Source: Watersipora subatra (Eukaryota > Bryozoa > Gymnolaemata > Cheilostomatida > Watersiporidae). Taken from it: DNA of 64,000 nt. The notes beneath the pieces were generated by a model. It saw nothing but the letters and a program-made list of their open reading frames with translations, was not told the origin of the DNA and did not search any database. A program made the position numbers and the translations under genes. This document shows, one piece after another, positions 28,417 to 56,901 of this stretch. The stretch lies in NCBI RefSeq assembly GCF_963576615.1, contig NC_088717.1:26236013-26300012 (forward strand), read 5' to 3'. How positions within the stretch are numbered: the first letter of the stretch is position 1; each line of letters starts with the position of its first letter.

Positions 28417-29045
28417 ATGCCGTACTCACCACTAGACTCGGATGATGAACCAAATGATCCATTTGGAAGGCAATACACATTTCAGACTGCAGTGGAAGTT
28501 CACAATGGGAACTGTTCCTTTGAAAAGTAAGGAAATTAATAATAATTGCTATGAAAATTAATAATACTTTTGTTTTCAAATTATTGTATAGATAATTATG
28601 TAAATCCTTTTGTAGAACCCTCATAGTCGGTGGTTTCCTATTCACAAGAATCTGCTTGTGCGGCAAATTGTAAGTGTGACTATCGATGTGGTCTAGTTCA
28701 CTTTAAGAATAAATTGTAGTTTCCTTGGTTTCCATTGTTACATTACTGCATGATACAGAAGCTCTCTGAGCAAGAAGTGTTAGTTTAGTAGCAAGGGTAA
28801 AGATTTACAAAAAGAGATGAGAAATTTTTTTGATGTTGACATTTGCAGTTATATCTATTCTTAAATTAATTAAGCCTAAATGATTTATTAGACTTACACA
28901 AAAGAATTATAATATTTAATATATTTACAGGGGAGGTCATAATTCTGAAACTCACTACAACTCTGACTGCAGGTGGAAAAAGATCATAGACAGAGTGTCT
29001 AATAAAGTCTACCTTGTGCGTCGCTGTGTTTGTTTTCCAAAGTGA
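28417..29045 (+). CDS. gene A1: 92-aa two-module cysteine protein, novel family
   Basis: Three exons: 28417-28526, 28616-28669 and 28931-29045, with GT-AG introns of 89 and 261 bp, both phase 2. I do not recognise the family. The protein starts with an acidic segment (PLDSDDE, residues 5-11) and has six Cys: 33, 50, 52, 68, 87, 89. They form two modules, C33-x-F...R-x-C50-L-C52 (exons 1-2) and C68-R-W...R-R-C87-V-C89 (exon 3). An in-frame TGA just upstream of the ATG rules out a longer start in this exon. No signal peptide or membrane segment. AATAAA at 29199. Closest relative here is A3. The six Cys could bind metal or form disulphides; function is unknown. Confidence 0.85.
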
Positions 29046-29049
29046 AAGT

Positions 29050-30236
29050 GAAAAATGTGACCAAGGTTAACAGCAGTCTTACTTTTGCCTCTGGATTCAG
29101 TCTAATTATTATGTAAAAATGTGTTGTTATCAGTTTTAACTGTGCCCAATTTATCTGTTTCTAGTAACTTCTACAAGAGCATGGCCAAATCTGTTCAGAA
29201 TAAATAAAATCTTGTCTCTAAATCTACACATGTAACATTGTTACAATAGTATCATCATCTGATGCTGCATAATTGTGTTGATATAATGAGTTTTGAAAAA
29301 TAAGTGATTTGCATAAAGGTTATAAAATAAATCAAAGTTTCAAACGGAATACAATTTGAGAGCTCACATAAGTATTAACTTGGAGCAGTTTTTGCCAGCT
29401 GAGTGAAAGATAACATAACAGGATGCAATAATATACCAGCACTTTGGGATCATCTTCTCCAAAGCATGTCTCATAGGCATAGCCATAGGCAAAATTGAGA
29501 CATTTTTTATATAAAAGCTTTCGACCTTTATATACTAAGCAACTAGATAGCTGACAAAGTGATATATCAGGTCTCTTACTGTCTTAAGCAAAGGTTTTGA
29601 CATGGCCAGGCCACAGAACACACAAAGACAGCCAGCTCTTTACTTACTGTCATGCAACAACAAATGATTGCATATTGTTGTGTAAAGTGGTAATGAGGGC
29701 TGTGCATAGTGTCTTTTCCACTGATGCTCTTTGGACAAAAACCTTGAAAGTGGTGACGTTAAGCCTGCATATTTGTAAAAAAAACTTGAAAGATTTTAAG
29801 TAGGGCATGGTGCTGTTAGTTGTGTGCACATGTAGATAACTAGCACATGGTTAGTTATATTCATCTCTACAGACTCATTAGATGTCCAAGTATACAGATG
29901 GCTCCACCTTCGACTTTTCTAGTTTCTTGTGTCATATGTAGACTACTTATGATGTCACATTATGAAAACTATTTTGTATTGAGCAGTGTGAATGAGTAAC
30001 CATATACCACAGCTATGTTAAGGCTTTAATATACCAGTGGAAGAGAAATAGAGACTCTAAAAATGAAATTATTTCTGCAGCTGGATGGTTACGAGTGAAA
30101 CTAAGTTAAGGTGTAGTGATGAGGCTAGGCATGCTATGCAGATGCATGATAAACCAGCTATTTAAAGGCGTGCATGTAAATGTTTAGTGATTATCACCGC
30201 ATGCTTTAGGAAAACGGAAAACAAAATTTCCTGTGA
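29050..30236 (+). other. A-B intergenic segment, duplicated
   Basis: No gene supported. Much of it is conserved in the minus-strand units (39.2-40.63 kb and 54.85-56.1 kb), for example around cccagctctttactt and the catgcggtgataatcacta complement. Duplicate copies share small ORFs (such as 29597-29803 here and 55465-55713), but their frames and ends differ, so I do not call them genes. Confidence 0.6.
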
Positions 30237-30238
30237 TC

Positions 30239-30404
30239 GGAAATTCCAAAGGTCATGCTGTTAGTGGATCAGTACTTTTATCATGACTAATGATCATTCT
30301 GGGAAACCCTTTTTTGGAATTCCGCAAACAAGTTTCATTTTTCCCTTCCTGGAAACTTTCTGAAATTTTGGATATCTCATTTAACTGTAGGCCTACTATA
30401 AAAA
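30239..30404 (+). promoter_or_regulatory. B1 promoter: kB-like, STAT-like sites and TATA box
   Basis: TATAAAAA at 30397-30404. Upstream lie GGAAATTCC (30239-30247), GGGAAACCC (30301-30309), and TTCCTGGAA (30346-30354), the last fitting a TTCN3GAA STAT-type palindrome. The block is largely conserved before B2 and B3. Binding factors are inferred only. Confidence 0.55.
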
Positions 30405-30493
30405 GGAAGCCATCCATATGATGGCATCAGAACTTTTGATAGTTTCGAACTGCTCACACCCGCTCTTTATAACGCATAAGACAAACATTAGAC

Positions 30494-32289
30494 ATGGCGC
30501 ATAGACCACTAGACAGTGATGATGAGATAGACCCAGGACAGACAGTTAGCAATCTACCTGTTGAAGTGCAAGAGCATGCACCTTCAAGATATCCGGGAAG
30601 AAAATGCCACTACAACAGGTAATTTTACATCGAAACTATTGTAATTGAGTTGTGTACTTGGGACATTAAAAATATTGAACCCTGAATTGGTAATTTGAAA
30701 CTAACTCTAAATAGTTCAGTAGCGTGTAAAAGGAATGTAACTTTGATTAAATTTTAAAACAGTTGCATCTTCTAAGGAAGTACCATTGGTAGATATTTTT
30801 ATAAGTTTTCAAATTAGGCTTTTGTCAACTAATAGAAAGCACTTGCCTCACTTGCCATGGTGACAGCCTTCATATTAATACTTAATAAACTGATACAGAG
30901 AGATACCAGTTGGCTCACAGCTGCTTAGATAAATAACCGCTGTTTTAGGTCACACAAATTTAAGACAATACGACAAAGTGGGTGCATGAGCTCTTGGAAG
31001 ATCAAAGAGTTCACCTTGACCCGAGAGTGCATATGCGGTAAATAGTAAGTACAAGTGAAACATTGTAACACTTTTTCAGTAGGTTTGTACATGAGCTTTT
31101 GTTATCGTTATATGATTGGATTTATGAAGAGACTGTTTATTATACTAGTGTAGAAACTTGTTCATCAAAACCATTGGAAACAATTTTTACACAGATTTTA
31201 TGTAAAAATTAAGCCATTAACATAACAAGGTATATCACCCTACTATTGTTAGCCTGTCATGACAAGCTGTTGTTTTTACGGAGTTGTCCCCGTCAAGCGA
31301 AGCGAGCAAAACAACAGCTTGTCACAATATGTACGCACTGCACCTGATGCATCAGCTGCACTGAAAAGGAGTTGTTCTCTTCCGTCTATGCGGCTTGGCT
31401 GTGATGTTATGTCGGTCGCTCCATTGGTAATCATACCGAATTTAGCCCAAAAATTTATGCAGAAAAAAAAAGATAAAAACAATCAACCAGAGACCAGTCT
31501 TTGCGATAAACTTTAGTAAAACTTAAGAAGGCAACAGCAGCAACTAAACATGTTGTTATTTGTGGGCTCAGTCAGTTTTATTTGTATTTTTGTATCAGTC
31601 AGTTTTAGTTGTTCTAAAGTGAATTCAGTTTCATTGCTGGCTCATTCATTGTTTTCAGTTAATTAGTTACAAATAGATAGGTTATATGGATGCCGAAATT
31701 CAGTTACCATGGCCTCTGCTACAGAAGTTCAACATTAGCCAGAACAGACCATTACACTATGACTTTTTGCAACCTCAGTTGCAGTTTGAAGATATGTTAA
31801 TGTTAACGTTTTTATCTTATTTTTTCTACATAAATTTTTGGGCTAAATGCGTTATGATTACCAATGGAGCGACCTACATAACATCGCAGCCAAGCTGCAT
31901 AGACGGAAGAAAACAACTCCCTTTCAGTGCAGCTGGCGCATCAGGTGCCGTGCGTATAGTGACAAGCTGTTGTTTTGCTCACTCTGCTCGATGAGGGACA
32001 ACTCCGCACAAACAACAGTTTGTCAAGACAGGCTATAATATAATTGTCTGAACCCATTGTTTACATTTCAAATTAGTTGGCACAGAAATTAGGTAGAAAT
32101 TATTAGCAGGTTATTGGCTACTCTACACAAAGGTTATCATATTATTTTGATTGTGTTTATTTTAGCCTAACTAGTGACTGGGAGAACCATTACAGTGATC
32201 AGTGTAAATGGAAAAGAATCACTGACCAGGTTACAAAAAAGGTCTATCTGATTCGAAAGTGCGTCTGTAAAAAACCATCCGGTGTATAG
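30494..32289 (+). CDS. gene B1: 114-aa two-module cysteine protein, novel family
   Basis: Exons 30494-30618, 30949-31044 and 32166-32289, introns phase 2 with GT-AG ends. Same design as A: acidic PLDSDDE start (residues 5-11), then two Cys modules. Seven Cys at 38, 54, 69, 71, 87, 106, 108. Module 1 (C38-H-Y ... R67-E-C69-I-C71-G-K) is longer than in A and has the extra C54; module 2 is C87-K-W...R104-K-C106-V-C108. Intron 2 (1121 bp) is enlarged by a 782-bp transposon; without it the length matches B2 and B3. No signal peptide. Candidate AATAAA at 32452. Function unknown; intactness of three paralogues argues for use. Confidence 0.86.
31252..32033. mobile_element. 782-bp non-autonomous element with ~228-bp inverted repeats
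   Basis: Terminal inverted repeats of about 228 bp (31252-31479 and 31806-32033) begin gcctgtc and are flanked by TA on both sides, as in elements that duplicate a TA target. Each arm holds its own hairpin (gacaagctgttgtttt and its complement). No transposase. It lies in intron 2 of B1 and is absent from the same intron of B2 and B3, so it inserted after those copies separated. ORFs inside (31259-31516 and others) are by-products of the repeat. Confidence 0.9.
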
Positions 32290-33660
32290 AGACGATATCA
32301 ACCATGGAGTGACTGTTATCTAAAAACATTAGTCTATATTTAACGGTTATAATATCAGTCACTAAATCATGCAATACCGTGATTAATTTACTAACTTTAA
32401 GTAAATTGAAAATCACACTGTCAGCAAATATAATAATTGAATATTATATATAATAAATGCTTATGAACAACATCTCTTGTTGTGAATGTGCCTTCGAACA
32501 CACATGTTTCAACTCGCAAATATGCATATGAATCTGATAAGAACAAGTGATATGCTTCAACAATAATAACAACCAAATAGGCATCTCTGACAGTACATTT
32601 GAAACTTTATAAAACTTTAGCATTTTAATTCCAAGCTGGAATAAGTTTTCATGGATCTGATGACTGACTGCAACTGGTCAAGGCTAGAAGTTCTTTATGT
32701 TAACCTGAACAAACATTCTATATTTAGTTCCTGATGGTCAGCAATATGATCTCTCAATAAGTGATCCAGAGCATGACATACAGTGTTGTGCATATCCAGT
32801 TCACTTTGGTTATCATGCTTTCCTTTATTTCACCAGTTATATACATATACAAATATAGACAACTATAAATAAACAAAATGACAGCTGGTGCCATAAAACC
32901 TAAAATTGTTCTATGAATTGGATGATGTAATAATATTATGCAATAAAAATTTTTGATTTCCAAAATCTTTGGAAACGAAAGCCTGGAATTTCCGATGCTC
33001 AGTGTGAAAGCAGAATATTGATTGATATCAATACATTCAGAGAGCTACTGTATGTTGACTATGAAATACCTTACACCACATTTGCTTCTTATGAAAACCT
33101 AGCGATGAAATTACAGTTTCCAACAGCATTGGAAGGATGAAGTATGAAAGCTAGCACTCTCATCTAGTCTTTTCAACTATGAACAACCAATCTAAAGTTT
33201 CGATAAAATTCCTGTAAAACCATTACATGCCATCACGTTGACCTTTGCATATATAGTACGTGCACAACAACTCTAGAGTTTCCATAAAATTCCTGTAAAA
33301 CCTTTACACTCCATCATGTTGACCTTTGCATACTATCATATTGCTGATAAACATTGACTGTGAGTTGACTTCTGTAAGCAAAGACAAAAGAGTCAAACCT
33401 CATGAGATATCTGAAGACGGTTTTAAAACAACAATAAAAACTGTCAGAGTTATTGTCTTTCAAACAATATACTTTGACAACACATGATTAGCAAATTAAT
33501 TTTGACCTTGAGGTGAAATAAGTTTGTTTTCTGCACATTGGTTCATTTCAATCATATATTTAATAAAATCAATTTTATAATAAAATATATTAACAAACGG
33601 TACAATATTATTATAGTTCAGCATAGCAGCCTTTGAAAATTTTGTTGATTTATTATTTGA
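32290..33660. other. B1 3' flank and D segment with ORF-like relic
   Basis: B 3' flank (to about 32580) is shared with 37.8-38.1 and 53.5-53.8 kb. The D segment follows, also present at 42.05-42.75, 50.9-51.75 and 62.2-62.9 kb. Its plus frame at 32973-33140 reads PGISDAQCESRILIDINTF, then ELLYVDYEIPYTTFASYENL, ending at a TGA where other copies have TGG. A divergent minus-strand ORF (32754-32963) has one hydrophobic stretch (AVILFIYSCLYLYM). I cannot say which, if either, was ever translated. Confidence 0.55.
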
Positions 33661-33669
33661 TTCATAGTT

Positions 33670-34583
33670 GCACACATGACTGTTAGCTGTTAGCTGTTAG
33701 TACACATGGCTGTTAGCTGGTAGCACACATGGCTGTTAGCTGTTAGGTGGTAGCACACATGGCTGTTAGCTGGTAGCACACATGGCTGTTAGCTGGTAGC
33801 ACACGAGGCTGTTAGCTGTTAGCTGGTAGCACACAAGACCGTTAGCTGTTAGCACACAGGGCTGTTAGCTGTTAGCTGGTAGCACACATGGCTGTTAGCT
33901 GGTAGCACACATGGCTGTTAGCTGTTAGCTGGTAGCACACATGGCTGTTAGCTGTTATCTGTGGTAGCACACATGGCTGTTAGCTGGTAGCACACGTGGC
34001 TGTTAGCTGTTAGCTGGTAGCACACAAGACTGTTAGCTGTTATCTGTGGTAGCACACATGGCTGTTAGCTGGTAGCACACGTGGCTGTTAGCTGTTAGCT
34101 GGTAGCACACAAGACTGTTAGCTGTTAGCTGGTAGCACACATGGCTGTTAGCTGTTAGCTGGTGGCACACATGGCTGTTAGCTGTTAGCTGGTGGCACAC
34201 ATGGCTGTTAGCTGTTAGCTGGTAGCAAACATGGCTGTTAGCTGGAAGCACACATGGCTGTTAGCTGTTAACTGGTAGCACACATGGCTGTTAGCTGTTA
34301 GCTGGTAGCACACATGGCTGTTAGCTGGTAGCTGGTAGCACACATGGCTGTTAGCTGTTAGCTGGTGGCACACATGGCTGTTAGCTGTTAGCTGGTGGCA
34401 CACATGGCTGTTAGCTGTTAGCTGGTAGCGCACATGCATGTTAGCTGTTAGCTGGTAGCACACATGGCTGTTAGCTGTTAGCTGGTGGCACACATGGCTG
34501 TTAGCTGGTGGCACACATGGCTGTTAGCCCTTAGCTGGTAGCTGGTGGCACACATGGCTGTTAGCTGTTAGCTGGTAGCACAG
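33670..34583 (+). repeat. minisatellite 1 (gctgttagctggtagcacacatg)
   Basis: About 0.9 kb of tandem repeats mixing 21-bp and about 30-bp units built from tagctgttagctggtagca and cacatggctgt. The reverse complement of the same tract is at 49971-50675, with matching flanks (attatttgattcatagttg). Long ORFs across it are a consequence of unit lengths divisible by three. Confidence 0.95.
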
Positions 34584-34799
34584 AGACAAAGACTATTAAA
34601 GTGTCTCTTCATTACCTACTTTAATTTTCACCCACAAAACGTATTAGACCATGTTTAGAAAGCTGCACTGCTTATAACCGTTTTAATAAATTGCTACCAA
34701 ATTATTTTATCTGTATAAACTTCATTTTAGTAAGTAGAGTTGATTGAAGTTACTAGACTAAATACTTTCAGCAAATGTGTGTCATATCTCTCTTTTGCA

Positions 34800-37188
34800 G
34801 CACACGGGGACAATGCAAGGTTTTTGACACTATGGCAGTAACAGCAGCAATATGTTGTTTGCAACACCACCTTAAAATCTACCATCTAAACTAATGTTCC
34901 TCTGTTATTATCTGTAGAGAGAGAGCAAGTGTTATAATACTAGCAGAGGATCTATGGCTGTATTTTTAGTCAGCTCTGAAGTCGTTTTATTGAACATAGG
35001 AATCATTGCGTCATTAAGAGGGTTTCAAATAAAAAATATGAGTTTAGACGAGGGCGTATAAGGAATGCAAGAACTACAATAAAATAACTCTTGTTTTATG
35101 AAGCACGAACAAAGGATACTTGAGATTGTTTCATGATCTGGATAATTCATTTAGTCAATGAATGACTAAGGGAGAGTAGCTTTCAACATGAAAACACTGC
35201 CTGCTTTCCCTAGCCTAGTCTTTGTTAACGCAACAGTGGGTCACCTGCGCATAGCCCTGTATGATCAATTAGCCAGAGGGCATGAGATGGATATTCCATT
35301 GCGTGACTATAGGTTGCGTGACTAAATACTCACATTGCTCGCTATAACTAATAGGACTTGATAGCTTTGTAATAGGAGTAGGATTGCATCATGCTTACTC
35401 ATCTACATGCTATAAACTCTAATGATAACCGCTGAGCAAAGTTTACAGATTATATTCACCTGTTAACTGTCTCTTTTCTCTAGAATAAAACATCTACAGT
35501 TATAGCTTTCATTTCACGCGTGAGTAATAAGGTAGTCACAGAAAAGTAATCATAAACTGAGTTCTTGCTAGTCGATTTACTAACTCAATAATGTAACAGG
35601 CTGTTGTTACTATTTATATCAGTTACTGAAAATATAGCTTTCACTTGTGACTTCATACACAGAAGGTAATGCAGTCGTCAACAAAACTGCTGGGTGAACA
35701 AAGAGCAAATGTATAGCCTTTTTCTTAGAATCACCAACTTTGGCATACAATAGGACAGAAGAACTCGAGAAAATTTTTTGTCACTCGATTCAGTCCTAGA
35801 CATAGACTAATCTAGCTCATCCGTGATCAGAAACCTTGACTGTTTGTTATTAAATGTCGCAGATACAGTCTTTGAAGTGATAATATTAACACAGTTCAGC
35901 ATATGCCAATCACTCTCAATACTGATTACATCATATCAGGTGTAATCAGTCAAACATACATGTAGCTAACAGAGCAGCTTGCAAAAGCATGAAAACACTG
36001 CTCTATTTATACAATCGAGATGTCACTAGCAATTATCATTTACAGTCAAATTGTATTATTTTACTTTAAAATACAAGTTGAACAGTTTTGTTTTTTTATA
36101 CTGAGCTAGACTTGTTTTTGGATGTAGCTGCTCAAATGATGATAAAATTCACCTTTTCCTCTATCTTTTGTTCTGGTGTGTCATAACTGCTCAGTTTTAA
36201 CCTTGCAAACATTTGCTTATTATGTTCGATCTAAAAATATAACCAATATTACATATAATTCAAGTGGTCAGGGTGGCCTAGTGGTAGTGTCTTTGACTAT
36301 CAACCATGGAGTTGGTGGTTCAAGCCCTGCTTAATGCCACAGTGACAAAAAGCTCTCACCACGTTTCAACCATTAGTTACTGGGTCTTTCAGATCTAGAC
36401 CATAACTTGGAGACCTCATGTACCACACTGACAATGTGAGCATGTTTAAGATCCTCCTCTGTCCTTCGCACATTGAACAAGTAAAATGACTACCTGGCTC
36501 TACCAGACTGGACGTGTTACAAAATGCATCCCTTCGCATTAATCTGACAGTTCCAGAAGAAGCACCTGATATGTATTAGAACCACCCAAAAAAGCTTATA
36601 AAAAGCTAGTCTTGGTGGTGTGTTTCTCTACTAGCACATGAGAGGGCTACCAAGCATTGGTAGTGTTCTCATGTAATATTACTAAATGTATAATATAAAT
36701 AATAATTGTAAATAATATAATAATATATGTTTATTAATTTATATATATAAACAAAGATTGTCAGACTTTGGTGTATCATATCATTAACATCACTCAGAAA
36801 TGCAATACAGTTTTATTGCTTTGAGTGAAGCAATATCTGTATGATGAGAGAAGACAAAAAACAACATTATGTTTAATATATTGTTATATATTTATTAATG
36901 TATATATATAAACAAAGATTGTCCAACTTTGGCATATCATATCATTGCTTACTAGATTAGCAGTTGGGTGTATTGAATACAAAATACTCTCGCTGGCTTC
37001 ATATCAATTCAGCCAACAAGTCAGGGCAATGATAACATGGATTTTCCTGCTTAAGGTGGAATCCCTACCAGCAAATGGAAACTAGACGGAAGTCTTTTAG
37101 AATATTCTAGAAGCAATGCAATAGTGCTGACTCATATAAAGTTCTGTATAGTCTGGTTAATCAGTCAAATGTTTCCTGTAGTTATTTG
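34800..37188 (+). repeat. R1 segment of duplication unit 1
   Basis: Longest plus-strand copy of R1, interrupted by a SINE at 36264-36690. Paralogous to minus-strand segments at 40.64-41.8, 47.25-49.83 and 59.6-62.05 kb, and to diverged pieces at 1.2-2.5 and 12.2-13.6 kb. No ORF is conserved among copies. It ends at the AT palindrome, where the equivalent minus-strand copies continue into E. Confidence 0.85.
36264..36690 (+). mobile_element. tRNA-derived SINE
   Basis: tRNA-like head with A box tggcctagtgg (36274-36284) and B box ggttcaagccc (36317-36327), which would drive RNA polymerase III transcription. A non-tRNA body of about 330 bp follows (containing ctacctggctctaccagact and acttggagacc). 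A related copy lies on the minus strand at 47900-48345 at the same position within R1, so it inserted before that R1 copy was duplicated. SINEs depend on a LINE partner, not seen here. Confidence 0.85.
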
Positions 37189-37365
37189 GATATATAATAT
37201 CCAAATATTATTTATATATATAATCTATATTATGTATAATATATTATATGTATAATATATTATATATATTATTAATATACTATATATTATATATAATATA
37301 TATGTAATATATTATATATATTATATATATAATATATTATATATATTATATATAATATAGACTAA
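37189..37365. repeat. AT-rich palindrome at the inversion junction
   Basis: About 175 bp made almost only of A and T, with nested inverted repeats of ataatatattatatat-type sequence. It sits where plus-strand unit 1 meets minus-strand unit 2. Confidence 0.85.
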
Positions 37366-38109
37366 ATATAACGTTCAGCAATGGTGACTCCTCCACCTCT
37401 TAAAAAGCACATATTGACAAACTGTACATTAGAGAAGATGTAAAAGGTAAAGGAATGGTTTCAATTGAGGAATGTGTGTGAATCGAGGAATTTTTGCTAA
37501 CCATAAAAAATTTAATTTTAATATTTAATTAAAATTTTAATATAAAATACTTGCTCAAATATTCTATATTTGATCTAACACTTTATATTACTGTTATGTT
37601 ATTTTTATATATGTATATATTTTGTTTCAAAATATATACTATTATTTAAAGTTATTAAATGTATATATTATTTTTATAGTGTCAACTAAGTGAAATAGTC
37701 ATTGTATTTCTTTATGTTAATTTACTATGGCTTGATTTGAAATGTTTAATTTTTAGACAAAGTTTTTAATAAATAATGGTGAGATACCTATTTTGTATGC
37801 TGAGACATATCGGTTGTTCTCATCAAATTCATATGCATATTTGCAAGTTGAAACATGTGGGTCTGATGGCACATTCACAACAGAAAAGATTAGTCCTTTA
37901 TAAACATTTATTATATACAATATTCAATTATTATATTTGCTAACAATGTGATACAATATAACATCAGCTATCATTTATAAAAAATAATCATTTTGCTTAA
38001 AATAAGTGATCTCAAACAAGGTATTGCATAATTCAGTGACTGATATTATAACCACTACATATAAAATCAATGCTGTTAGGTAACAGCCATTCAAGGGTTG
38101 GTATCATCT
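37366..38109 (-). other. B2 3' flank with remnant start of ORF C
   Basis: Matches 53.17-53.8 kb. A minus-strand ATG near 37515 opens MVSKNSSIHTHSS, equivalent to the start of the ORF at 52895-53212, but the downstream part differs and is cut off near the palindrome. Candidate polyadenylation signal for B2 (complement tttatt) at 37907-37912. Confidence 0.5.
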
Positions 38110-39151: not shown

Positions 39152-40635
39152 GTCTAATGATCGTCTTATGCGTTATAAAGAGCGAGTGTAAGCAGTTCGC
39201 AACTATCAAAGGTTTTGATGCCATCATATGGAAGGCTTCCTTTTTATAGTACCGACAGTTAAGGGATATCCAAGATTTCAGAAAGTTTCCAGGAAGGGAA
39301 AAATGAAACTTGTTTGCGGAATTCCAAAAAAGGGTTTCCCAGAATGATCATTAGTCATGATAAAAGTACTGAGCCACTAACAGCATGACTTTTGGAATTT
39401 CCGAGATCACAGGGAATTTTGTTTTCCGTTTTCCTAAAGCATGCGGTGATAATCACTAAACATTTACATGCACGCCTTTAAATAGCTGGTTTATCATGCA
39501 TCTGCATAGCATGCCTAGCCTCATCCCTACACCTTAACTTAGTTTCACTCGTAACCATCCAGCTGCAGAAATAATTTCATTTTTAGAGTCTCTCTTTCTC
39601 TTCCACTGGTATACTAAAGCTTTAACATAGCTGTGGTATATGGTTACTCATTCACACTGCCTGAGACAAGATGGTTTTCATAATGTGACATCATAAGTAG
39701 TCTACATATGACACAAGAAACTAGAGAAGTCAAAGGTGGAGCCATCTGTATACTTGGACAGCTAATGAGTCTGTAAAGATGAGAATAACTAACCATGTGC
39801 TAGTTATCTACAAGTGCACACAACTAACAGCACCATACCTTTTTTAAATATTTACATTTTTTCACATGTATGCAGGCATAATTATACCTATTTCTATAGG
39901 TTTTGTCTAATGAGCATCAGTTGAAAAAACACTATACACAGCCCTCATTACCACTTTACACAACATTATGTAATCATTTGTTGTTGCATGACAGCAAGTA
40001 AAGAGCTGGCTGTCTTTGTGTGTTATGTGACCTTGTTCTGGCCTTGCCAAAACTTTTGCTTAGGACAGTAAGTGTGGTATATGTTTTAATGTTTATATGT
40101 TTCAAACAGTTTTAATTTTCTACACTGATCTAGACCTGTTCGTGGTTGTAGCTGCTTAAAAGATGATGAAATTCACCTTTTCCTCTATCTTTTGTTTTGG
40201 TATATTCATAACTGTTCAGTTTTAACCTTGCACTGCTTGCTTATTATGTGTATATTATATATAAAATATTATCAATATTATATATAATACATTTATGTAT
40301 TATATATAAACAAAGGTTATCAAACTTTGGCACGTCATATCATTGTTTACTACATTAGCAATTGGGTGTATTGATTACTAGATACTAACTCTGGCTGGCA
40401 TATCAGGTCAGCCAACAAGCCAGGGCAACGATAACATGGAGTTTCCTGCTTGAGATGGAATCCCTAGCAGCATATGGAAACTAGATTGAAGTCTTTTAGA
40501 ATATTCTAGAAGCGATGCAGAGGTGCGATATATGAGTTTGACTGCTATCCAGTTGCTTAGTACATAAAAGTCACAAACTTTTATACGAAGAAATATTTCA
40601 TATTGGCCTATCAGAGACATGCTTTGGAATATTAC
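39152..40635 (-). other. B2 upstream segment with promoter and inserted R1 fragment
   Basis: Paralogous to the A-B intergenic segments of units 1 and 3. TATA (complement tttttata) at 39241-39248, ggaatttcc at 39394-39402, gggtttccc at 39332-39340, ttccaggaa at 39287-39295, mirroring B1. An R1 fragment in plus orientation (about 40085-40545) interrupts the segment, splitting agtaag from gtgcgatatatg. The small ORFs are not conserved. Confidence 0.6.
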
Positions 40636-42049: not shown

Positions 42050-42760
42050 TACAGGAATCAAATCACAGTCAATGCCTACCAGGAATATGATAGTATGCAA
42101 AGGTCAACATGATGGCGTGTAATGGTTTCACAGGAATTTTATCAAAACTCTAGATTGGTTGTTCATAGTTGAAAAGAATAGATGAGAGTGATAGTTTTCA
42201 TACTCCATTCTTCCAACGCTGTTGGCAACTCTAATTTCATCACTAGGTTTTCATAAGAAGCAAATGTTGTGTAAGGCATTTCATAGTCAACATAAAATAA
42301 CTCTATGAATGTATTGATATTAATAAATATTCTGCTTTCCATCTGCTGAGCATCGGGAATTCCAAGCTTCTGTTTCCAAAGTTCTTGGAAATCAAAAACT
42401 TTCATTGCAAATTCCTATTACATCATCCAATTCATACTGTAGAACAATTTTAGGTTTTATGGCATCAGCTATCATTTTATTTATTTATAGTTGTCTATAC
42501 TTGTCTGTGACTGATGAAATAAAGGAAAGCATGATAACCAAAAGAAACTGGATATACAAAACACCGTAGATCATGCCCTGAATGACATATTGAGAGATTA
42601 CTTTTGATAACCATAAGAAACTCAATGCAACTAAGTATAGAATACTTGTTCAGGTTATAATAGAGAATTGCTCATGCTAACCGATTACGATGGTCATCAC
42701 ATTTTTATAGTAACTTATTATGGATTGTGATTAAAATGTTAACTTTAGACAAAGTTTTAA
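42050..42760 (-). other. D segment copy with longest ORF-like relic
   Basis: The minus-strand ORF at 42163-42405 (80 codons) reads FQELWKQKLGIPDAQ, then FYVDYEMPYTTFASYENLV and ends IYSFQL. The same peptide is recognisable at 32973-33140, 51117-51410 and, broken, at 62440-62600. No known domain. The N-terminal end differs between copies, so the true start or splice site is not known. Confidence 0.5.
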
Positions 42761-43869: not shown

Positions 43870-43958
43870 GATGAAGTTGTTTTAAACTCTCAGTGGCTTA
43901 GGAAGTTCAGCTGCTTCTCTTTTCTTTCAAATATGATGGAGTTTCAGCTAAACGCTGC

Positions 43959-44120
43959 TTTTTATATCGAGTCTCTGGAATTTTTGTTTACCAAATCTTT
44001 ATTCCAAATCTCTTGGAAATTTATCATGGAAATGTTTTGCTAACGAAACAAATATATATGACTCATGCTTTGCAGCTTCCAACTAGTCTATAATCAAAGT
44101 ATTCCCAGGGCGGAAATTCC
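43959..44120 (-). promoter_or_regulatory. A2 promoter: TATA box and kB-like site
   Basis: TATA (complement tttttata) at 43959-43966, 90-97 bp before the ATG; ggaaattcc at 44112-44120, about 150 bp further upstream, the spacing seen in the other genes. Confidence 0.6.
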
Positions 44121-44867: not shown

Positions 44868-45262
44868 TTATTGATACAAATAGACATATTGATAACAATA
44901 GACATATTGATACAAATAGACATATTGATACAAATAGACATATTGATACAAATAGACATATTAATACAAATAGAGATATTGATACAAATAGACATATTGA
45001 TACAAATAGACATATTGATACAAATAGACGTATTGATACAAATAGACGTATTGATACAAATAGACATATTGATACAAATAGACATATGAATACAAATAGC
45101 CATATTGATACTAATAGACATATGGATACAAATAGACATATTGATACAAATAGACATATGAATACAAATAGCCATATTGATACTAATAGACATATGGATA
45201 CAAATAGACATATTGATACAAATAAACATATTGATACAAATAGACATATTAATACAAATACA
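44868..45262 (+). repeat. minisatellite 2 (18-bp gatacaaatagacatatt), copy 1
   Basis: About 22 units of 18 bp with small variants (gatatgaatagacatatt, aatacaaatagccatatt). Because 18 is divisible by three, all frames of one or both strands stay open. The flank after 45262 (ttgtgggctcacatttggaag) matches that after 63462. Confidence 0.97.
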
Positions 45263-47249: not shown

Positions 47250-49830
47250 TGTGTTAGTAAGATATACAGATTAGTGGAGAGTTTTTGTTAAGCCGCTGTC
47301 ATCTGGCTCCCCTTTGTTAAGCCTCTGATTTGCCAAAAACATGCTCTAAATAAAAACACAATTTACAGAAAAGTGCTTTCTGCTATGAATAAGGCCAAGT
47401 CTGCTGCCGCAAGTTGTAGTAATGGATGCCACCTATAATAATTATGTTGGACATACAACAACAATACATAATATGTCTAAATATATCATATGCAGCTCTT
47501 TCATCAAACTCCAAATAACTACAGGAAACATTTGACTGATTAACCAGACTATACAGAACTTTATATGAGTCAGCACTAATGCATTGCTTCTAGAATATTC
47601 TAAAAGACTTCCTTCTAGTTTCCATTTGCTGCTAGGGATTCCATCTTAAGCAGGAAAATCCATATTATAATTGCCCTGACTTGTTGGCTGAATTGATATG
47701 AAGCCAGAAAGAGTATCTTTTAATTAATACACCCAATTGCTAATCTAGTAAACAATGATATAACACGCCAAAGTTTGACAATTTAATATTATATATAACC
47801 TATATATATATAATTATATATATATGACAACTATATATAATAAACATAGATTAATATAATTTATATGTAATAAAAGTAATGGTATGCTTTTGTCATGTAG
47901 CGACAATGCTTGCTAGTGTTCTTATGTTCTAGTGCCACCAAGACTAGTTTTTTACAAGCTATGTTAGGTGGTCCTATAAGCTATGTAGGGTGGTCCTATA
48001 AGCTATGTTGAGTGGTCCTTTAAGCTATGTAGGGTGGTCCTATAACTGATTAAGGGCTTCTTCTGGAGCTGCCAGATTAATCCATTTTGCAACACATCTA
48101 GTCCGACAGAGCCAGGTAGTCATTTCATTTGTCCAATGTGCGAGATACAGAAGTGGATCTTTAATACGCCAACAATGTCAGTGTGGTGTGCAAGTTATGG
48201 TCTAGATCCGAAAGACTCGACAAGTTAGGGTTGAAAGCTCGCTGAGAGCTTTTTATCAGTTCAGCAGTAAGCAGAGCTTGCTCCACTAACTCCATGGTTG
48301 ACAGTCAAAGACACCACCAATAGGCCATCTTGACCCAATGAATTACATATAATATTGGTAATATTTTAGATCTAACATGCACATAACAAGCAAATGTTTG
48401 CAAGGCTACAACTGAGCATTTTTGATCATACCAAAACAAAAGATAGAGGAAAAGGTAAATTTTATTATCTTTTAAGCAGCTGCACCCAAGAACAGGTCTA
48501 GCTCAGTATAAAAAAGGTAAAACTTTTCAACTTGTATTTTAACTAAAAATAATACAATTTGACGGTAAATTATATTTGTTATCAACATCTCGATTGTGTA
48601 GAAAAAGCAGTGTTTTCATGAGATAGCATGCTTTCCTACTAGCTATGATTTATTGATTACATCTGATATGGTGTAATCAATATTGAGAGTGATTGGCATA
48701 TGCTGAGCTGTGATAATCTTATCACCTCAAAGACTGTATCAGCTTCATTTAATAACAAACAGTCATTGTTACTGATCACGGATTAGCTAGATTAGCTAGA
48801 TTAGTTCAAGTCTAGAATTGAATCGAGTGACAAAAAACTTTCTCGAGTTTTTCTGTCTTGTTCTATGCCAAAGTGGGGGATTCTAAGAAAAGGAGTATAG
48901 ATTTCCTTTTTGTTCACCCAGCAGTTTTGTTGGCAACTGCATTACCTTCTGCGTATGAAGCCACAAGCTCAAGACTAGATTTTCCGTTACAGATATAAAT
49001 ATTAACAACAACGCTGCTACATTATTGTGTTAGTAAATTTACTAGCAAGAACTCAGTTTTTGATTATTTTTCTGTGACTACCTTATCACTCACTAGTAAA
49101 CTGAAAGCAGTGGATTTTTTATCCTAGAGAGAAGAGACAGTTACTAGGTGAATGTGATATGTAAACTTTGCTCAGTGGCTATCATTAGAGTTTGGAACAT
49201 GTAGATGAGTAAGCATGATGCAATCCTGCTCCCATTACAAAGCTATCAAGTCCAATTAGTTATAGCCAGCAATGTGGGTGTTTAGTGCTAAAATAACCTA
49301 TAGTCACGCAATGGAATATCCAGCCTATGCACTATGGCTAAATGATCATACAGGGCTATGCCCAAGTGCCCATCTGTTGTGTTAACAAACATTAGGCTAG
49401 GGAAAGCGTGCAGTGTTTTCATGTTAAAAACTAGGCTCGCTTAGTCATGCATTGACTAAATGAATTATCCAGATCAGGAAACAATCTCAAGTTGTCTACG
49501 CTTCATAAAACAAGAGTTATTCTATTGTAGTTCTTGCATTCCTTTGTACACACTCGCCTAAACTTATATTTTATAATTGAAACCCTCTTAATGACACAAT
49601 GATTCCTATGTTCAATAAAACGATTTCAGAGCTGACTAAAAATACAGCCAAAACCTTTTTGCAGTATTATAACACTGGCTCTATCTACAGATAATAGCAG
49701 AGGAATATTAGTTTAAACAGCAAATTCTAAGGTGGTGCTGCAGACAACATATTGCTGCTGTTGCTGCCATAAACTGTCAAAAACCTTGCATTGTCCCACT
49801 GTGCTGCAAAAAGAGAGATATGACATACAT
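47250..49830 (-). repeat. R1 segment with SINE, unit between B3 and A2
   Basis: Minus-strand counterpart of 34.8-37.2 kb, containing the SINE at 47900-48345 and the R1 part beyond the palindrome that unit 1 lacks. It adjoins minisatellite 1 on the right and E on the left. No gene. Confidence 0.85.
47900..48345 (-). mobile_element. tRNA-derived SINE, paralogue of the copy at 36.3 kb
   Basis: Head on the right (minus strand: gatggcctattggtggtgtc, then gtcaaccatggagttagtgg), body leftward with tacctggctctgtcggacta. Its left end contains three or four repeats of agctatgttgggtggtcct-type sequence (47965-48045), absent from the other copy. It occupies the same R1 position as the SINE at 36264, hence inserted once and was then duplicated. 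Confidence 0.8.
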
Positions 49831-49970
49831 TTGCTGAAAGTATTTTGGTCTTGTAACTTCAATTAACTCTATTTACTAAAATAAAGTTTACACAGATAAA
49901 ACAATTTAGTAACACACAAAGACACTCTGATAGTCCTTGTCACTAATTACAGCCTTTTTTATTTTCTTAC

Positions 49971-50675
49971 CAGCTAACAGCCATGTGTGCTACCAGCTAA
50001 CAGCCATGTGTGCTACCAGCTAACAGCTAACAGCCATGTGTGCTACCAGCAACCAGCTAACAGCAATGTGTGCTACCAGCTAACAGCCATGTGTGCTACC
50101 AGCTAATAGCTAACAGCCATGTGTGCTACCAGCAACCAGCTAACAGCAATGCGTGCTACCAGCTAACAGCCATGTGTGCTACCAGCTAACAGCTAACAAG
50201 CATGTGCGCTACCAGCTAACAGCCATGTGCGCTACCAGCTAACAGCAATGTGTGCTACCAGCAACCAGCTAACAGCAATGTGTGCTACCAGCTAACAGCC
50301 ATGTGTGCTACCAGCTAACAGCCATGTGTGCTACCAGCAACCAGCTAACAGCCATGTGCGCTACCAGCTAACAGTCATGTGTGCTACCAGCTAACAGCAA
50401 TGTGTACTACCAGTTAACAGCTAACAGTCTTGTGTGCTACCAGCTAACAGCCATGTGTCCTACCAGCTACCAGCTACCAGCTATGTGTGCTAACAGCTAA
50501 CAGCCATGTGTGCTACCAGTTAACAGCTAACAGCAATGTGTGCTACCAGCTAACAGTTAACAGCTATGTGTGCTACCAGCTAACAGCCATGTGTGCTACC
50601 AGCTAACAGCCATGTGTGCTACCAGCTAACAGCCATGTGTGCTACCAGCTAACAGCTAACAGCCATGTGTACAAC
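49971..50675 (-). repeat. minisatellite 1, inverted copy
   Basis: Reverse complement of the 33670-34583 tract, built from ccagctaacagccatgtgtg units with caaccagcta variants. It sits between D and R1, as in unit 1. Confidence 0.95.
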
Positions 50676-50799
50676 TATGAATCAAATAATAAATCAACTA
50701 AATGTTTAAAGACTGCTATGCTGGAGTTTATCATAATATTGTACTGTGTGTTAGTATCTTTTGTTGTAAAATATTATTAATAGTTATTTATTCATTTTA

Positions 50800-51760
50800 T
50801 TAAAATTATGATTGATATGAACCAATGCGCAGAAAACCAACTTATTTCATATCAAGGTCAATATTAATTTGCTAATTATGTGTTGTCAAAAGATATTGTT
50901 AGAAAGAAAATCAGCCTGTCAGTTTTTATTGTTATGTTTAAAACCGTCTTCAGGTATTTCATGAGTCTTCACTCATTTGTCTTTGCTTACAGAAGTCAAA
51001 TCGCAGTCGATGTCTACCAGCAATGTGATAGTATGCAAAGGTCAACATGATGGCGTGTAATGGTTTCACAGGAATTTTTATCAAAACTCTAGATTGGTTG
51101 TTCATAAGTGAAAAGACTAGGTGGGAGGGCTAGTTTTCATACTCCATCCTTCCAAGGCTGTTGGCAACTCTATTTTTATCGCTAGGTTTTCATAAGAAGC
51201 AAATGTTGTGTAAGGCATTTCATAGTCAACATACAGTAGCTCTATGAATGTATTGATATCAATCAATATTCTGCTTTCACACTGAGCATCGGGAATTCCA
51301 AGCTTCTGTTTCCAAAATATATGTGAATGTCTTCTTACTAAACAATATAATGCGTACAGAGTGTAGATTGGGAATTTCAATGTTTTGCCTCTAAACTTTT
51401 TGGAGATCAAAATTTGTTATTGTGTACTATTTTTACATCATCCATTTCATAGAAAAATTGTAGGTTTTATGGCACCAGCTGTCATTCTGTTTATTTATAG
51501 TTGTTTATACTTGTTTATGACTGGTGAAATAAAAAAACATGATAACCAAAGTAAACTGGATACACACAACACTGTATGTTATGCCCCGGATCTCTTACTA
51601 AAAGATCGCTTTTGTTGACCATCAGGAACCAAATATAGAATATTTGTCTAAACTAACATAAAAAACTCTTAGCCTCGACCAGTTGCAGTCAGTCATCAGA
51701 TACACAAAAACTTATTCCAGCTTGGAATTAAAATGTTTAAGTTTTAGAAAGTTTTAAATG
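50800..51760 (-). other. D segment copy of unit 3
   Basis: The minus-strand ORF at 51117-51410 contains WKQKLGIPDAQCESRI and LLYVDYEMPYTTFASYENLA, ending KTSPPT. Its N-terminal part differs from the 42.4 kb copy and may be a local insertion. The opposite-strand ORF (51385-51618) shares AVILFIYSCLYLF with unit 1. Confidence 0.55.
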
Positions 51761-52894
51761 AACTGTCAGAGATACCTATTTGGTTGTTGTCGCATATCGC
51801 TTGTTCCTAGCAAATTAATTTGCATGTTTTTATGTTTAATATTATGTTTGATGGCGCATTCACAACAGAAGAGGTGGGGGTCCTACCACACAAAGTTGTC
51901 GTCAGAATAGTCACTTTTAAAATCACTGTTGTCACTTTTAAAATCATTGTCGTCACTTTTAAAATCACTGTCACCTTTTTCAAGTTGGCAACCAAATCAA
52001 CTTTTTTCTTCACATTCGTTATTTTAATACAAATATCTATTCTGGTGGCACTGGGTTGCGTTAAAAATCTGAAACTCGCTCAGTTTGAACTTCTGCTAAC
52101 CAAAAGCATGACTCAACCAGCGACCTTCACAACTTATTAATGATGTTTGGGAGCGTTGCTGATTACTCCGCGAAAGGTGACAGCCGTGTTAGGTTTTTAG
52201 GGCTATATTTCTTGTACTGAAAATAGACCGAGATTGTCTTTAATAATCACTGTCAGTCACAGACTTGGAAACGGATTTGCTGTCAATGTCGTGGCATTTC
52301 ATTGCTTTAACTTTTTGGCAGTCTATAAATGCTGGGCCAGATGCTTCAAACCAAAACTTGACCAAACTCGGTTGACCGTGGTGATTTATGAACAAATAAA
52401 AAGTTAGTTAAGGTACGGCTACATGTAACAAAATTTCCGTTGGTTCTAACCAAAATCACGAAATGATTGAAACACAGAATTATTCTGCGCTGCTAGAATC
52501 GTGCTAGCGAGCACGATTCCAGCAGCTTTTGCAATTAGAGAGACGTATGATGACGTCCAACAGACGTATAATGACACACAATAAAAGTATAAGTGCAATT
52601 CAACATAGTACACACGATGCAACTGCTTAGATTGCGTTATTGAATGTATTTATTGTTTGGACGCTATAGCTACAAATTGTTTATTTTTTACAGAAAATGT
52701 TGACATCTCTAGCGCAATCAAGTCGGTTGCATCGTATTTACTATGGTAACTTTCTGTAATATTTTTCTTGTGTGTCGCATTATGTTCTCGGACTACATAT
52801 ATCTTAAAATTTGCTAGAGTCGTGCTCGTTAACCAACAATAGCGTGACCTAAACAGTTACATCGTGTGTTCTATGTTGAAATACTTATGTATTT
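51761..52894. other. C segment: partial B 3' flank, 24-bp repeats, palindromes
   Basis: 51.76-51.88 kb repeats part of the B 3' flank (ggcgcattcacaacag). At 51908-51980 a 24-bp unit (cacttttaaaatcactgttgt) occurs three times; on the minus strand it would read as DSDFKSD-type acidic repeats. A 38-bp hairpin with few mismatches lies at 52489-52526. Two direct repeats (52773-52835 and 52901-52964) share tgtgtcg...ctagaatcgtgctcg. I see no known element. Confidence 0.5.
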
Positions 52895-53212
52895 TTATTG
52901 TGTGTCGCGATATATGTCTTGGACTATACTAATTGCTAAAGCTGCTAGAATCGTGCTCGCTAATAATTTGTTTAATCTGTTAATTAAAAGCGTTTCGTCG
53001 ACGAACTCGGTGGGCATGCACAGCTCAAATAATTCTTTTAATTTCGACCGATTAATTCTGCGTTTTTCGTGATTTCGGTCAGAACTCAGAACCGACGAAG
53101 AATTCGTTACATGCAGCCGTACCTTTAGTAATGAATAGTAGCTTTGAGTACCTTTAGTAGCCGTACCTTCACTTGATGAATGTGTGAGAATCGAAGAACT
53201 TTTGCTAACCAT
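52895..53212 (-). CDS. ORF C, 105 codons, hypothetical
   Basis: ATG at 53212 opens MVSKSSSILTHSS; the body is Ser-rich, then basic and helical (EKRRINRSKLKELFELCMPT), with a hydrophobic C-terminal part (LLASTILAALAISIV). The start is also present at about 37515 next to B2, then diverges. No known domain or signal peptide. The C-terminal end lies in one of the two direct repeats, so it may be an accidental fusion of host sequence with repeat. The acidic N-terminus of A/B is not shared. Low confidence that it is expressed. Confidence 0.3.
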   Translation of the reverse strand: MVSKSSSILTHSSSEGTATKGTQSYYSLLKVRLHVTNSSSVLSSDRNHEKRRINRSKLKELFELCMPTEFVDETLLINRLNKLLASTILAALAISIVQDIYRDTQ

Positions 53213-53808
53213 AAAAAATTTAATGCAGTTAAATATAAAATATTTCAGTCAAATATTTTATATTTGATCTAATACTTTATATTACTTTTACGTTAGTTTT
53301 ATATAAGTATATACTTTGTTTCAAAATATATATATTATTATTATTTAAAATTGTTAAATTTAGATGTTATTTCCAGAACCAACTGAATGAAATAGTTATC
53401 ATATTTCTACATGATAATTTATTATGGCTTCGATTTAAAATGTTTAATTTTTAGACAAATGTTTAAATAAGCGACGTTGTGATATCTATTCGGTATGCTG
53501 AGACATATCAGTTATTCTTATCAAATTCATATGCATATTTGTGAGTTGAAACATGTGGGTCTGATGGCACATTCACAACATAAGAGTTTGATTCTTTATA
53601 AACATTTATTATATACAATATTCAATTATTATATTTGCTAACAATGTGATACAATATAACATCAGCTATCATTTATAAAAAAATAATCATTTTGCTTAAA
53701 ATTAATAATCTCAAACAAGGTATTGCGTGATTTAGTGACTAATATTATAACCGCTATATATAGACTCGATGCTGTTAGGTAACAGCCATTCAAGGATCGG
53801 TATCATCT
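53213..53808 (-). other. B3 3' flank
   Basis: Paralogous to 37.48-38.1 kb. Candidate polyadenylation signal for B3 (complement tttatt) at 53605-53610, the position matching B2. No gene. Confidence 0.6.
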
Positions 53809-54815
53809 TTATACATTAGGTGGTTTTTGACAGACGCACTTTCGAATCAGATAGACTTTTTTCGTAACCTGGTCAGTGATTCTTTTCCATTTACACAGCT
53901 TGCTGTAATGATTCTCCCAGGCACCAGGGGTGCTAAAATAAACACAATCAAAATAAAATAGTATGCAGTCTGTGTGTACAGTCACCGATAATCTGCTGTT
54001 TTTAGCCCATTTCTGTGCCAACTAATTTGGAATATAAACAATAGATTCAGCTGAGCATAGATTTAAAAGCGATATACTTTGTTATGTCAATGTGGAAAAG
54101 TCCATAAAACGTTTTTGATGGACAAGTTTTTTAATTAGTATAATAAACAGTCTTTTCATAAATTCAACCATATAATAATAACAAAAACTCGCGTATGAAC
54201 CTGCTAAAAAGCAAGCTAGCCCAAATTAGAATGTTTTGTTTATACTTACTATTTCCCGCATACACACTCTAGGGTCAGGGTGAACTGGTCGATAATTACG
54301 GAGCCCATGCATCCACTGCGTCGTATTTTCTGAGGTTTGTGCAACCTTAAAAATATAGCAGAGGTTTATTTAATCAGTTGTAAACTGACTGGCAGCTCTC
54401 TGTCAGTATTTATGAGTATTACAAGAAAGCTGTCACCATAGCAAATGAGGCAGGTGCTTCTATTAGCTGACAAAACGAAGGCTTAACAACTTATAATACA
54501 AATATATACTAACATTATTACTTAGAAAATGCAACTGCTTTGAAACTAATTTTATCAAACTTGAATATTTTTTTATTTTTTACTGATTAGTAATTTATTT
54601 TAAGTTGTTTTCAAATTACCAATTCAACATTCAGTATTTTTAATGTCCCAAGTACACAACTCAATTACAGTAGTTGCGATGTAAAGTTACCTGTTGTAGT
54701 GACATTTCCTTCCCGGATATCTTGGAGGCGCATGCTCTTGCACTTCAACAGCCAGATAGCCAACTGTCTGTCCTGGGTCTATCTCATCATCACTGTCTAG
54801 TGGTCTATGTGCCAT
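53809..54815 (-). CDS. gene B3: 114-aa two-module cysteine protein
   Basis: Exons (minus) 54691-54815, 54250-54345 and 53809-53932; introns 345 and 317 bp, phase 2. Exon 1 encodes the same 42 residues as B2. All seven Cys are kept. Exon 2 carries VIIDQ at residues 58-62, different from both B1 and B2, and Leu at 67 where other modules have Arg (TLTLECVC). Module 2 is C87-K-W...R-K-C106-V-C108, ending QKPPNV. It lacks a signal peptide. Preceded by A3 at the same spacing (about 1.4 kb) as A1-B1, the only other complete A-B pair. Function unknown. Confidence 0.86.
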
Positions 54816-54904
54816 GTCTAGTGTTCGTCTTATGCGTTATATAGAGCGAGTGTAAGCAGTTCGCAACTATCAAAGGTTTTGATGCCATCATATGGAAGGC
54901 TTCC

Positions 54905-55065
54905 TTTTTATAGTACCGACAGTTAAGGGATATCCAAGATTTCAGAAAGTTCCCAGGAAGGGGAAAATGGAACTTGTTTGTGGAATTCCCAAAAAGAGTT
55001 TTCCAGAATGATCATTAGTCATGATAAAAGTACTAGGCCACTAAAACATGACTTTTGGAATTTCT
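54905..55065 (-). promoter_or_regulatory. B3 promoter: TATA box and kB-like site
   Basis: TATA (complement tttttata) at 54905-54912; ggaatttct at 55057-55065 is the position equivalent of the B2 site with one change. The STAT-like site has one inserted base (ttcccaggaa). Confidence 0.5.
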
Positions 55066-56257
55066 GATCACAGGAAATTTTGTTTCCCATTTTCCTAAGG
55101 CATGCGGTGATAATCACTAACTATTTACATGCATGCCTTTAAATTGCTGGTTTATCATGCATCTGCGTAGCATGCCTAGCCTCATCACTACATCTTTACT
55201 TAGTTTCACTCGCAACCATCTGGCTGCAGAAATAACTTCTTTTTTAGAGTCTCTTTTTCTCTTCCACTGGTATACTAAAGTTTTAACATAGCTGTGGTAT
55301 ATGGTTACTCATTCACACTGCTTGAGACAAGATGGTTTTCATAACGTGACATCATCAGTAGTCTACATATGACACAAGAAACTAGAGAAGTCAAAGGTGG
55401 AGTCGTCTGTATACTCTTACAGCTAATGAGTCTGTAGAGATGAGAATAACTAACCATGTACTAGTTATCTACATGTGCACACAGCTAACAGCATTATTCC
55501 CTTTATAAAATCTCTCAGTTTTCTTATATAAAAATGTAAGTATAATGTTACTACTTCAATGTTTTTTGTCCAAAGAGCATCAGTTGAAAAGACACTATGC
55601 ACAGCCCTCATTACCACTTTACACAACATTATGTAATCATTTGTTGTTGCATGACAGCAAGTAAAAAGCAGGCTGTGTTTGTGTGTTCTGTGACCTTGTT
55701 CTAGCCTTGCCAAAAACCTTTGCTTAGGACAGTAAGAGGTGCAGTATATGACTTTGACAACTATCTAGTTGCTTAGTATTTAAAGGTCACAAACCTTTTT
55801 TATGGAAAAATATCTTAATTTGTACTATCGGAGACATGTCTTAAAGAATATTGTCCTAAAGTGCTGGTATATTAATTGCATTCTGTTATATTATCTTCTA
55901 CTCAGTTGGCAAAAACTGCTCCAAGTTAATATTTATGTAAGCTCTCAAATTGTACGTGGTTTGAAAATTTGATTTGGTTTTTTCTCTATGCAAACCATTT
56001 GCTTTTCAATGTTCATTAATTAAATAAACACAATTAAAAGCATAGGATGATGATACTGTTTTAACAATGTCAAATGTGTGAGTTCAAAGACAATATTTTC
56101 TTTATTCTGAACAGATTTGGCTATGCTCTTGTAAAAGTGACTAAAAACAGATAAATTGAGCACAGTAAAAATAATAACAACATATTTTTACACAACATTT
56201 ATACTGAATCCAAAAGCCAAAATATGTCTGCTGTAACCTTGGTCATATTTTTCATTA
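55066..56257 (-). other. A3-B3 intergenic segment, duplicated
   Basis: Matches the A1-B1 interval and the part upstream of B2. No gene supported; the ORF at 55465-55713 is antisense to sequence whose other copies carry different frames. Candidate A3 polyadenylation signal (complement tttatt) at 56101-56106, about 150 bp after the stop as in A1. Confidence 0.6.
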
Positions 56258-56901
56258 TTAGTTTGAAAAACAAACACAGCGACGCACAAGGTAGACTTTC
56301 TTAGAAACCCTGTCTTTGATCCTTTTCCACCTGCAGTCGGGGTTGTAATGGGCTTCAGAATTGTGGCCCCCACTGTAAATATATTAAATCTCATAATTAT
56401 TTTATGTAAGTTCAATACCTCACTTAAGTTCAATTAATTTAAGAATAAATACATGTATAACTGCAAATGTCAATTTTTAAAAAATTTCCCAACTCTTTTT
56501 GTAGTTCTTAAAGTTTTTATGCAGCACCCAACTATCAAACTAAAAACTCTTAAAGCTTCTGTATCATGCAGTAACATAAAAATAATAACCGTGGCAACTA
56601 CAATGTGTTCTAAAAGGGATTTAGACCACACCCATAGTCATACTTACAGTTTGCCGCACAAGCAGATTTTTGTGAATAAGAAGCCACCAACTATTTGGGT
56701 TCTACAAAAGGAATTACGTAATTATCAATAAAACAGTTTTAAACTAGAAAACAGTATTGGTTTTCTTAACAGTTATTAGTAATGTCCTTACTTGTTAAAG
56801 TAACATTTTCCCTGGTGAACTTCCACCTCAGTCTGAAATGTGTATTGTCTTCCAGGCGGAGGAATTGGTTCATCATCCGAGTCTAGTGGTGGGTACGACA
56901 T
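56258..56901 (-). CDS. gene A3: 92-aa two-module cysteine protein
   Basis: Exons (minus) 56792-56901, 56648-56701 and 56258-56372; introns 90 and 275 bp, phase 2. Closest to A1: same length, six Cys at 33, 50, 52, 68, 87, 89, and the same GGFLFT before C50. Differences concentrate in residues 12-16 after the acidic start and at the C-terminus (CFSN against CFPK). No signal peptide. Function unknown. Confidence 0.86.

Follow-up and report, generated by a model that had tools for sequence, protein, structure and literature searches.

A selected and apparently orphan family of small two-module cysteine proteins in the bryozoan Watersipora subatra

The six genes considered here, A1, B1, B2, A2, B3 and A3, are carried intact by a 64-kb stretch of Watersipora subatra DNA (the whole stretch that was analysed, hereafter the window), and two kinds of described system come closest to them. 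With small multi-module zinc-binding proteins the A and B proteins have in common a module present in duplicate, in which His and Cys residues are conserved, a basic character and no leader, but their order of residues, H-x(n)-C...C-x-C, has no convincing match in Pfam or PDB, and metal binding is here putative. With inducible invertebrate antimicrobial peptide clusters they have in common clustered small Cys genes, a TATA box and a kappaB-like site near the start; unlike those peptides, however, the A and B proteins have no visible signal peptide, 5 of 7 members contain an odd number of Cys, and induction is likewise putative. Nearest of all are uncharacterized public proteins of W. subatra, of which P0001, P0002 and P0003 are B3, B1 and A2 themselves, letter for letter, whereas P0004 lies outside the window and has the look of an A/B mosaic. 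The three identities point to this species as the source of the window. Among the matches listed for literature on bryozoans with immunity or lineage-specific genes, no title named a bryozoan immune effector.

Taken together, the analyses below indicate that the six genes almost certainly belong to a real, selected and apparently orphan family. A first-pass annotation of the window had described six genes with three coding exons, phase-2 introns and products of 92-114 amino acids (aa), and a search for GT-AG splice sites found all of them as claimed, both introns being phase 2 in each gene:

Gene A1, 28417-29045, plus strand: coding exons 28417-28526, 28616-28669 and 28931-29045; 92 aa; no public protein in the searches run
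Gene B1, 30494-32289, plus strand: coding exons 30494-30618, 30949-31044 and 32166-32289; 114 aa; identical to public protein P0002; apparent inverted-repeat insertion in intron 2
Gene B2, 39151-38110, minus strand: coding exons 39151-39027, 38663-38568 and 38233-38110; 114 aa; no public protein in the searches run
Gene A2, 43869-43221, minus strand: coding exons 43869-43748, 43625-43554 and 43335-43221; 102 aa; identical to public protein P0003
Gene B3, 54815-53809, minus strand: coding exons 54815-54691, 54345-54250 and 53932-53809; 114 aa; identical to public protein P0001
Gene A3, 56901-56258, minus strand: coding exons 56901-56792, 56701-56648 and 56372-56258; 92 aa; no public protein in the searches run

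The search returned a single in-frame splice model each for A1 and A3, nine each for B1 and A2, four for B2 and six for B3; the models of A2, B1 and B3 were picked by identity to the public proteins, with which they also share the start Met, and that of B2 by homologous splice sites.

Purifying selection clearly acts on the coding sequence of this family. The ratio of nonsynonymous to synonymous substitution (dN/dS) was 0.27-0.46 in six within-class pairs, and reached 1 or more in 0, 0, 0, 1, 2 and 4 of 500 bootstrap replicates across these pairs. Their coding alignments contained 6 gaps, none of them frameshifting, in 1872 aligned bases, versus 42 frameshifting gaps in 2862 aligned bases when both introns of these pairs were compared, although the pairs share genes and neither the gap counts nor the dN/dS values are independent. 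When the three B pairs and A1/A3 were taken exon by exon (12 values), dN exceeded dS in no exon, the closest approach being exon 1 of A1/A3 (0.185 and 0.203). The view of the first-pass annotation that the genes are used is therefore supported by coding selection together with the three models that equal public proteins; for A1, A3 and B2, selection is the whole of the evidence for use. According to PMC12902671, the W. subatra Ensembl annotation was made chiefly by transcript alignment, with RNA-seq from one colony, run ERR11641139; this annotation may be the source of the models of P0001-P0003. These results bear directly on the suggestion that the six genes are mobile element relics or chance frames. 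The embedding of the genes among repeats and the want of a public model for 3 of the 6 speak for it, but it is largely contradicted by the selection test, and the preserved splice sites, the shared TATA boxes and the three exact matches to public proteins make it highly improbable.

Relatives were sought in a public collection of 5.8 billion proteins by a method that requires shared 5-residue words. A family profile gave 4 proteins with an expect value (E) of at most 10 among 77 candidates, all of them from W. subatra (P0001-P0004); A1, A3 and B2 as queries matched only P0001, P0002 and P0004 (3 of 33 candidates), and P0004 matched itself, P0001 and P0002 (3 of 3 candidates). None of these queries brought up a relative from any other organism in this collection. 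Because the searches depend on shared 5-residue words and the bryozoan content of the collection is unverified, a diverged relative may exist in another bryozoan. The family had been put at six members; all six stand, but the seventh paralog, P0004 (115 aa), raises the number to at least seven. The best window matches to P0004 are at most 87.5% by exon, so it is not encoded in the window. In the alignment of the seven proteins it is closest to A3 in columns 1-29 (21/29) and to B2 or B3 beyond (20/31 and 45/55), and thus resembles a patchwork of A-type and B-type segments.

Collections of known families gave little more. In Pfam the six proteins had only two matches, both to domains of unknown function (DUFs) and at chance level (E 0.85 and 1.7), and two module-2 pieces had none; PDB sequences yielded no match at E<=10 with a whole-family or a module-2 profile, and no described zinc-finger family was matched in either resource. 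Two NCBIfam matches, RiPP_SkfA (E 0.0017) and HHHH-motif protein (E 0.16), each with one member of six, were judged to be chance in short Cys- or basic-rich proteins, their alignments not being inspected. Pattern matches in viral and prokaryote collections (46 and 19 stretches) contained no relative by tblastn. Within the window, tblastn also pointed to 25369-25446 (E 0.066), but this stretch is retroelement-like and its open frame, judged by eye, is not the one matched, and the match was likewise put down to chance. Rfam gave no match at gathering score across the window. The strong match to a known family that the first-pass annotation had named as its refutation was not found in Pfam, NCBIfam or PDB, which supports its description of the family as apparently undescribed. 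The same results tell on the proposal that these proteins derive from a known Cys family, either a cystine-knot family such as neurotrophin/Spaetzle or another, and have diverged very far and lost the leader. Their C-terminal W..I....R-x-C-x-C resembles the last neurotrophin/Spaetzle strand, which also ends in C-x-C, but with PDB giving no match and Pfam none above chance level we consider this origin improbable.

The proteins themselves combine an acidic head with two basic, Cys-containing modules. The head, reported earlier as a DSDDE-type start, is invariant in all seven known members, P0004 included, and DSDDE matches the casein kinase 2 (CK2) consensus. Across the seven proteins the net charge is -3 to -6 in the region before the first Cys and +2 to +7 in the modules. 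None of them has a hydrophobic N-terminus as judged by Kyte-Doolittle hydropathy, no signal-peptide program being used: the most hydrophobic 15-residue window within the first 45 residues scores -0.77 to 0.72, which supports the earlier statement that a signal peptide is lacking. When module 1 was compared with module 2, hhalign aligned their Cys-to-C-x-C parts (E 1.5e-4, probability 51%, score 20.6), and none of 300 column shuffles of module 1 reached this score, the largest giving 16.4; on this alignment, the Cys parts arose by duplication within the protein, a finding new to this analysis. One His and three Cys are conserved per module in all seven proteins, the final C-x-C being kept in both modules and the His lying 3 to 9 residues upstream of the first Cys in module 1 and 4 residues upstream in module 2. 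The R-x-C-x-C of module 1 had been said to be changed in B3 alone; R is indeed L in B3, but it is also K in A3, leaving R in five proteins. The total number of Cys is 6 in A1 and A3 and 7 in the other five proteins.

The odd Cys number, the conserved His of each module and the missing leader together fit cytosolic metal binding better than a set of disulfides. They have to be weighed against a reading in which the proteins are secreted without a leader: synthesized in the cytosol, they would leave the cell through lysis or an unconventional export route, have modules joined by disulfides and act as antimicrobial or cytokine-like factors. Small size, basic modules, a C-x-C that closes a low-confidence predicted strand, the even 6 Cys of A1 and A3, and a multi-copy cluster with TATA and kappaB-like promoters, like those of antimicrobial peptide genes, all lend it some weight. 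Since no member has a hydrophobic N-terminus, since each module has three shared Cys and the Cys total is odd in 5 of 7 proteins, and since the module His would be left without a role, we regard secretion as somewhat less likely than a cytosolic place.

The conserved TATA boxes of the first-pass annotation were recovered in all six genes as TATAAAAA at -93 to -97, a pattern with 28 matches on the two strands of the window; a longer pattern fitted to the six sites, TATAAAAAGVARS, has 6 occurrences in the window, one at each gene, where 0.07 would be expected. In five of the six genes (A1, A2, A3, B1 and B2) a kappaB-like GGAAWTTCC stands at -248 to -255. This motif occurs 7 times in the window against an expectation of 0.29, and the binomial probability that 5 of 7 sites fall at -255 to -248 is 5e-7, a value that takes no account of common descent or of how the motif was selected. 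GGAAWTTCC resembles NF-kappaB sites, and 19 papers mention GGAATTTCC together with the name of the factor. An AP-1-like ATGAGTCAT is found 3 times in the window (0.97 expected; 7 of 100 shuffles reach 3), each time in an A promoter. The promoters were also scanned for AP-1 TGASTCA, STAT-like, GATA and ISRE-like patterns. The sites are as follows:

28323-28335, plus strand: TATA box of A1
30397-30409, plus strand: TATA box of B1
39236-39248, minus strand: TATA box of B2
43954-43966, minus strand: TATA box of A2
54900-54912, minus strand: TATA box of B3
56982-56994, minus strand: TATA box of A3
28168-28176: kappaB-like GGAAWTTCC at -249 of A1
30239-30247: kappaB-like GGAAWTTCC at -255 of B1
39394-39402: kappaB-like GGAAWTTCC at -251 of B2
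44112-44120: kappaB-like GGAAWTTCC at -251 of A2
57141-57149: kappaB-like GGAAWTTCC at -248 of A3
28223-28231, plus strand: AP-1-like ATGAGTCAT in the A1 promoter
44058-44066, minus strand: AP-1-like ATGAGTCAT in the A2 promoter
57086-57094, minus strand: AP-1-like ATGAGTCAT in the A3 promoter

Conservation around these sites is uneven. Between A1 and A2, identity upstream is 88/100 at -200 to -101 (44/50 in both bins) and falls to 20/50 by -400, with intron 2 at 29-58% per bin. In both comparisons that involve A2, the sequence upstream of the A genes is more strongly conserved than the introns, and the conservation forms a sharp footprint in one of the three A comparisons. The promoters hint that the genes may be switched on by stress or infection.

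On these grounds we favour, with a rough probability of 0.35, the reading that the A and B proteins are a cytosolic, possibly zinc-binding, lineage-restricted and inducible effector family. The proteins would stay in the cytosol or nucleus, and each module would fold into a hairpin of two strands. At the base of the hairpin, His-x(n)-Cys ahead of strand 1 and Cys-x-Cys at the close of strand 2 would together supply one His and three Cys to coordinate a single metal ion, for which zinc is the likeliest candidate. An acidic partner, either nucleic acid or an acidic protein, would be bound by the basic modules, and the DSDDE head, acidic and CK2-like, would modulate or mask this binding. TATA promoters with kappaB-like sites, joined in the A genes by AP-1-like sites, would activate the genes under infection or stress. 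A and B would then be inducible effectors of defence or stress inside the cell, with gene copies gained through duplication and lost again.

A number of observations weigh against this reading. As regards the proteins, the conserved His positions fall outside the part of the modules aligned by hhalign. AlphaFold models from four-row alignments with B1 and A2 as first rows had a mean pLDDT (predicted local distance difference test) of 36.9 and 38.7 and give the metal site no structural support; a low-confidence hairpin appears in each module of the B1 model but in module 2 only of the A2 model. No public protein was found for A1, A3 or B2 in the collection searched. As regards induction, the GGAAWTTCC motif was picked after the promoter sequences had been viewed, paralogs have promoter sites in common by descent, and the remaining 2 of the 7 sites fall in a repeat of the window (repeat R, below); B3 has no exact GGAAWTTCC but carries GGGAATTCC at -175, and only one of six promoters, that of A3, matches the ten-base kappaB consensus GGGRNWYYCC. 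Identity between A2 and A3 is 76-90% per bin across -450 to -101 versus about 31-66% in introns, so that conservation is not local, and differences between A1 and A3 are about as frequent upstream (72/326) as in the introns (19/89 and 50/255). Conservation of the B promoters spans about -700 to +200, too broadly for a footprint to be recognized, and young duplication or conversion may explain it. Finally, the Toll pathway varies among bryozoans: of the two surveyed in PMC8609888, Membranipora has 6 Toll receptors and the Bugula neritina transcriptome 0.

The same promoter evidence has to be read alongside a non-defence alternative, namely that these are small regulatory or structural proteins of a bryozoan-specific tissue or stage, such as calcification, larval attachment or polypide regression, with promoter motifs that reflect other Rel/AP-1-type or tissue factors. 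Purifying selection is in keeping with it, as is the generalization that orphan genes often serve lineage-specific traits, but the kappaB-like and TATA features slightly favour induction, and we hold this alternative to be tentative, much as we do secretion; both come close behind the cytosolic effector reading. A bolder form of that effector reading, in which two tandem H-C...C-x-C modules make up a new, bryozoan-born zinc-hairpin fold and the proteins are Rel/NF-kappaB-induced leaderless intracellular defence effectors turning over in gene clusters, seems unlikely on present sequence evidence.

Three A-then-B units can be recognized, A1-B1 on the plus strand and A2-B2 and A3-B3 on the minus strand, and their mutual alignment spans kilobases, at 77-85% in the main blocks, with repeat R and other repeats recurring between units; the family has spread via duplication of an A-B gene pair. 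One more A copy probably left a remnant:

27931-27964, plus strand: probable relic of exon 1 from an additional A-type copy (blastn 85% over 34 bases to A2 exon 1, E 1e-5)

Intron 2 of B1 contains an inverted repeat with arms at 31250-31480 and 31808-32035 that are 88% alike, and is 1121 bases long versus 334 in B2 and 317 in B3; the inverted arms and the excess length suggest insertion of a foldback element or miniature inverted-repeat transposable element (MITE) in B1.

Copies of repeat R lie at 32419-33573, 42925-41861, 51875-50642 and 62875-62110. Three of them hold an open frame, ..ESRI.I.INTF.EL.YVDYE.PYTTFASYENL.., at 32934-33140 (plus strand), 42163-42414 (minus) and 51117-51416 (minus); one copy differs by a whole codon, the fourth copy lacks a piece, and the best Pfam match is not confident (E 0.19). 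The frame may represent one exon of a further duplicated gene. We considered repeat R as a possible third gene and did not adopt it: the shared open stretch has no confident family match, and one copy is incomplete. A tandem repeat of 23-30 bases, GCACACATGGCTGTTAGCTG, adjoins repeat R copies at 33670-34582 and 49968-50670, in opposite orientation. An 18-base unit, ACAAATAGACATATTGAT, forms three arrays (44869-45260, 58096-58696 and 63238-63460), two of which sit 1.0-1.2 kb upstream of A2 and A3 and the third near the repeat R copy beside which no family gene was found. Elsewhere in the window, G+C is 48-55% at 2001-10000 against mostly 28-40% across the window, and two frames of at least 150 aa in this region match no Pfam family at E<=1. 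At 24878-26612, three open frames that by eye resemble the protease, RNase H end and integrase pieces of a long terminal repeat (LTR) retroelement have no Pfam match at E<=1.

The cluster represents a defined, selected and apparently orphan family with recognizable promoters. If the new-fold, defence-effector form of our reading were true, W. subatra would possess an immune effector class so far found in no other phylum. The cluster opens the birth of effector genes, their induction and possibly a new small metal-binding module to ordinary experiments.

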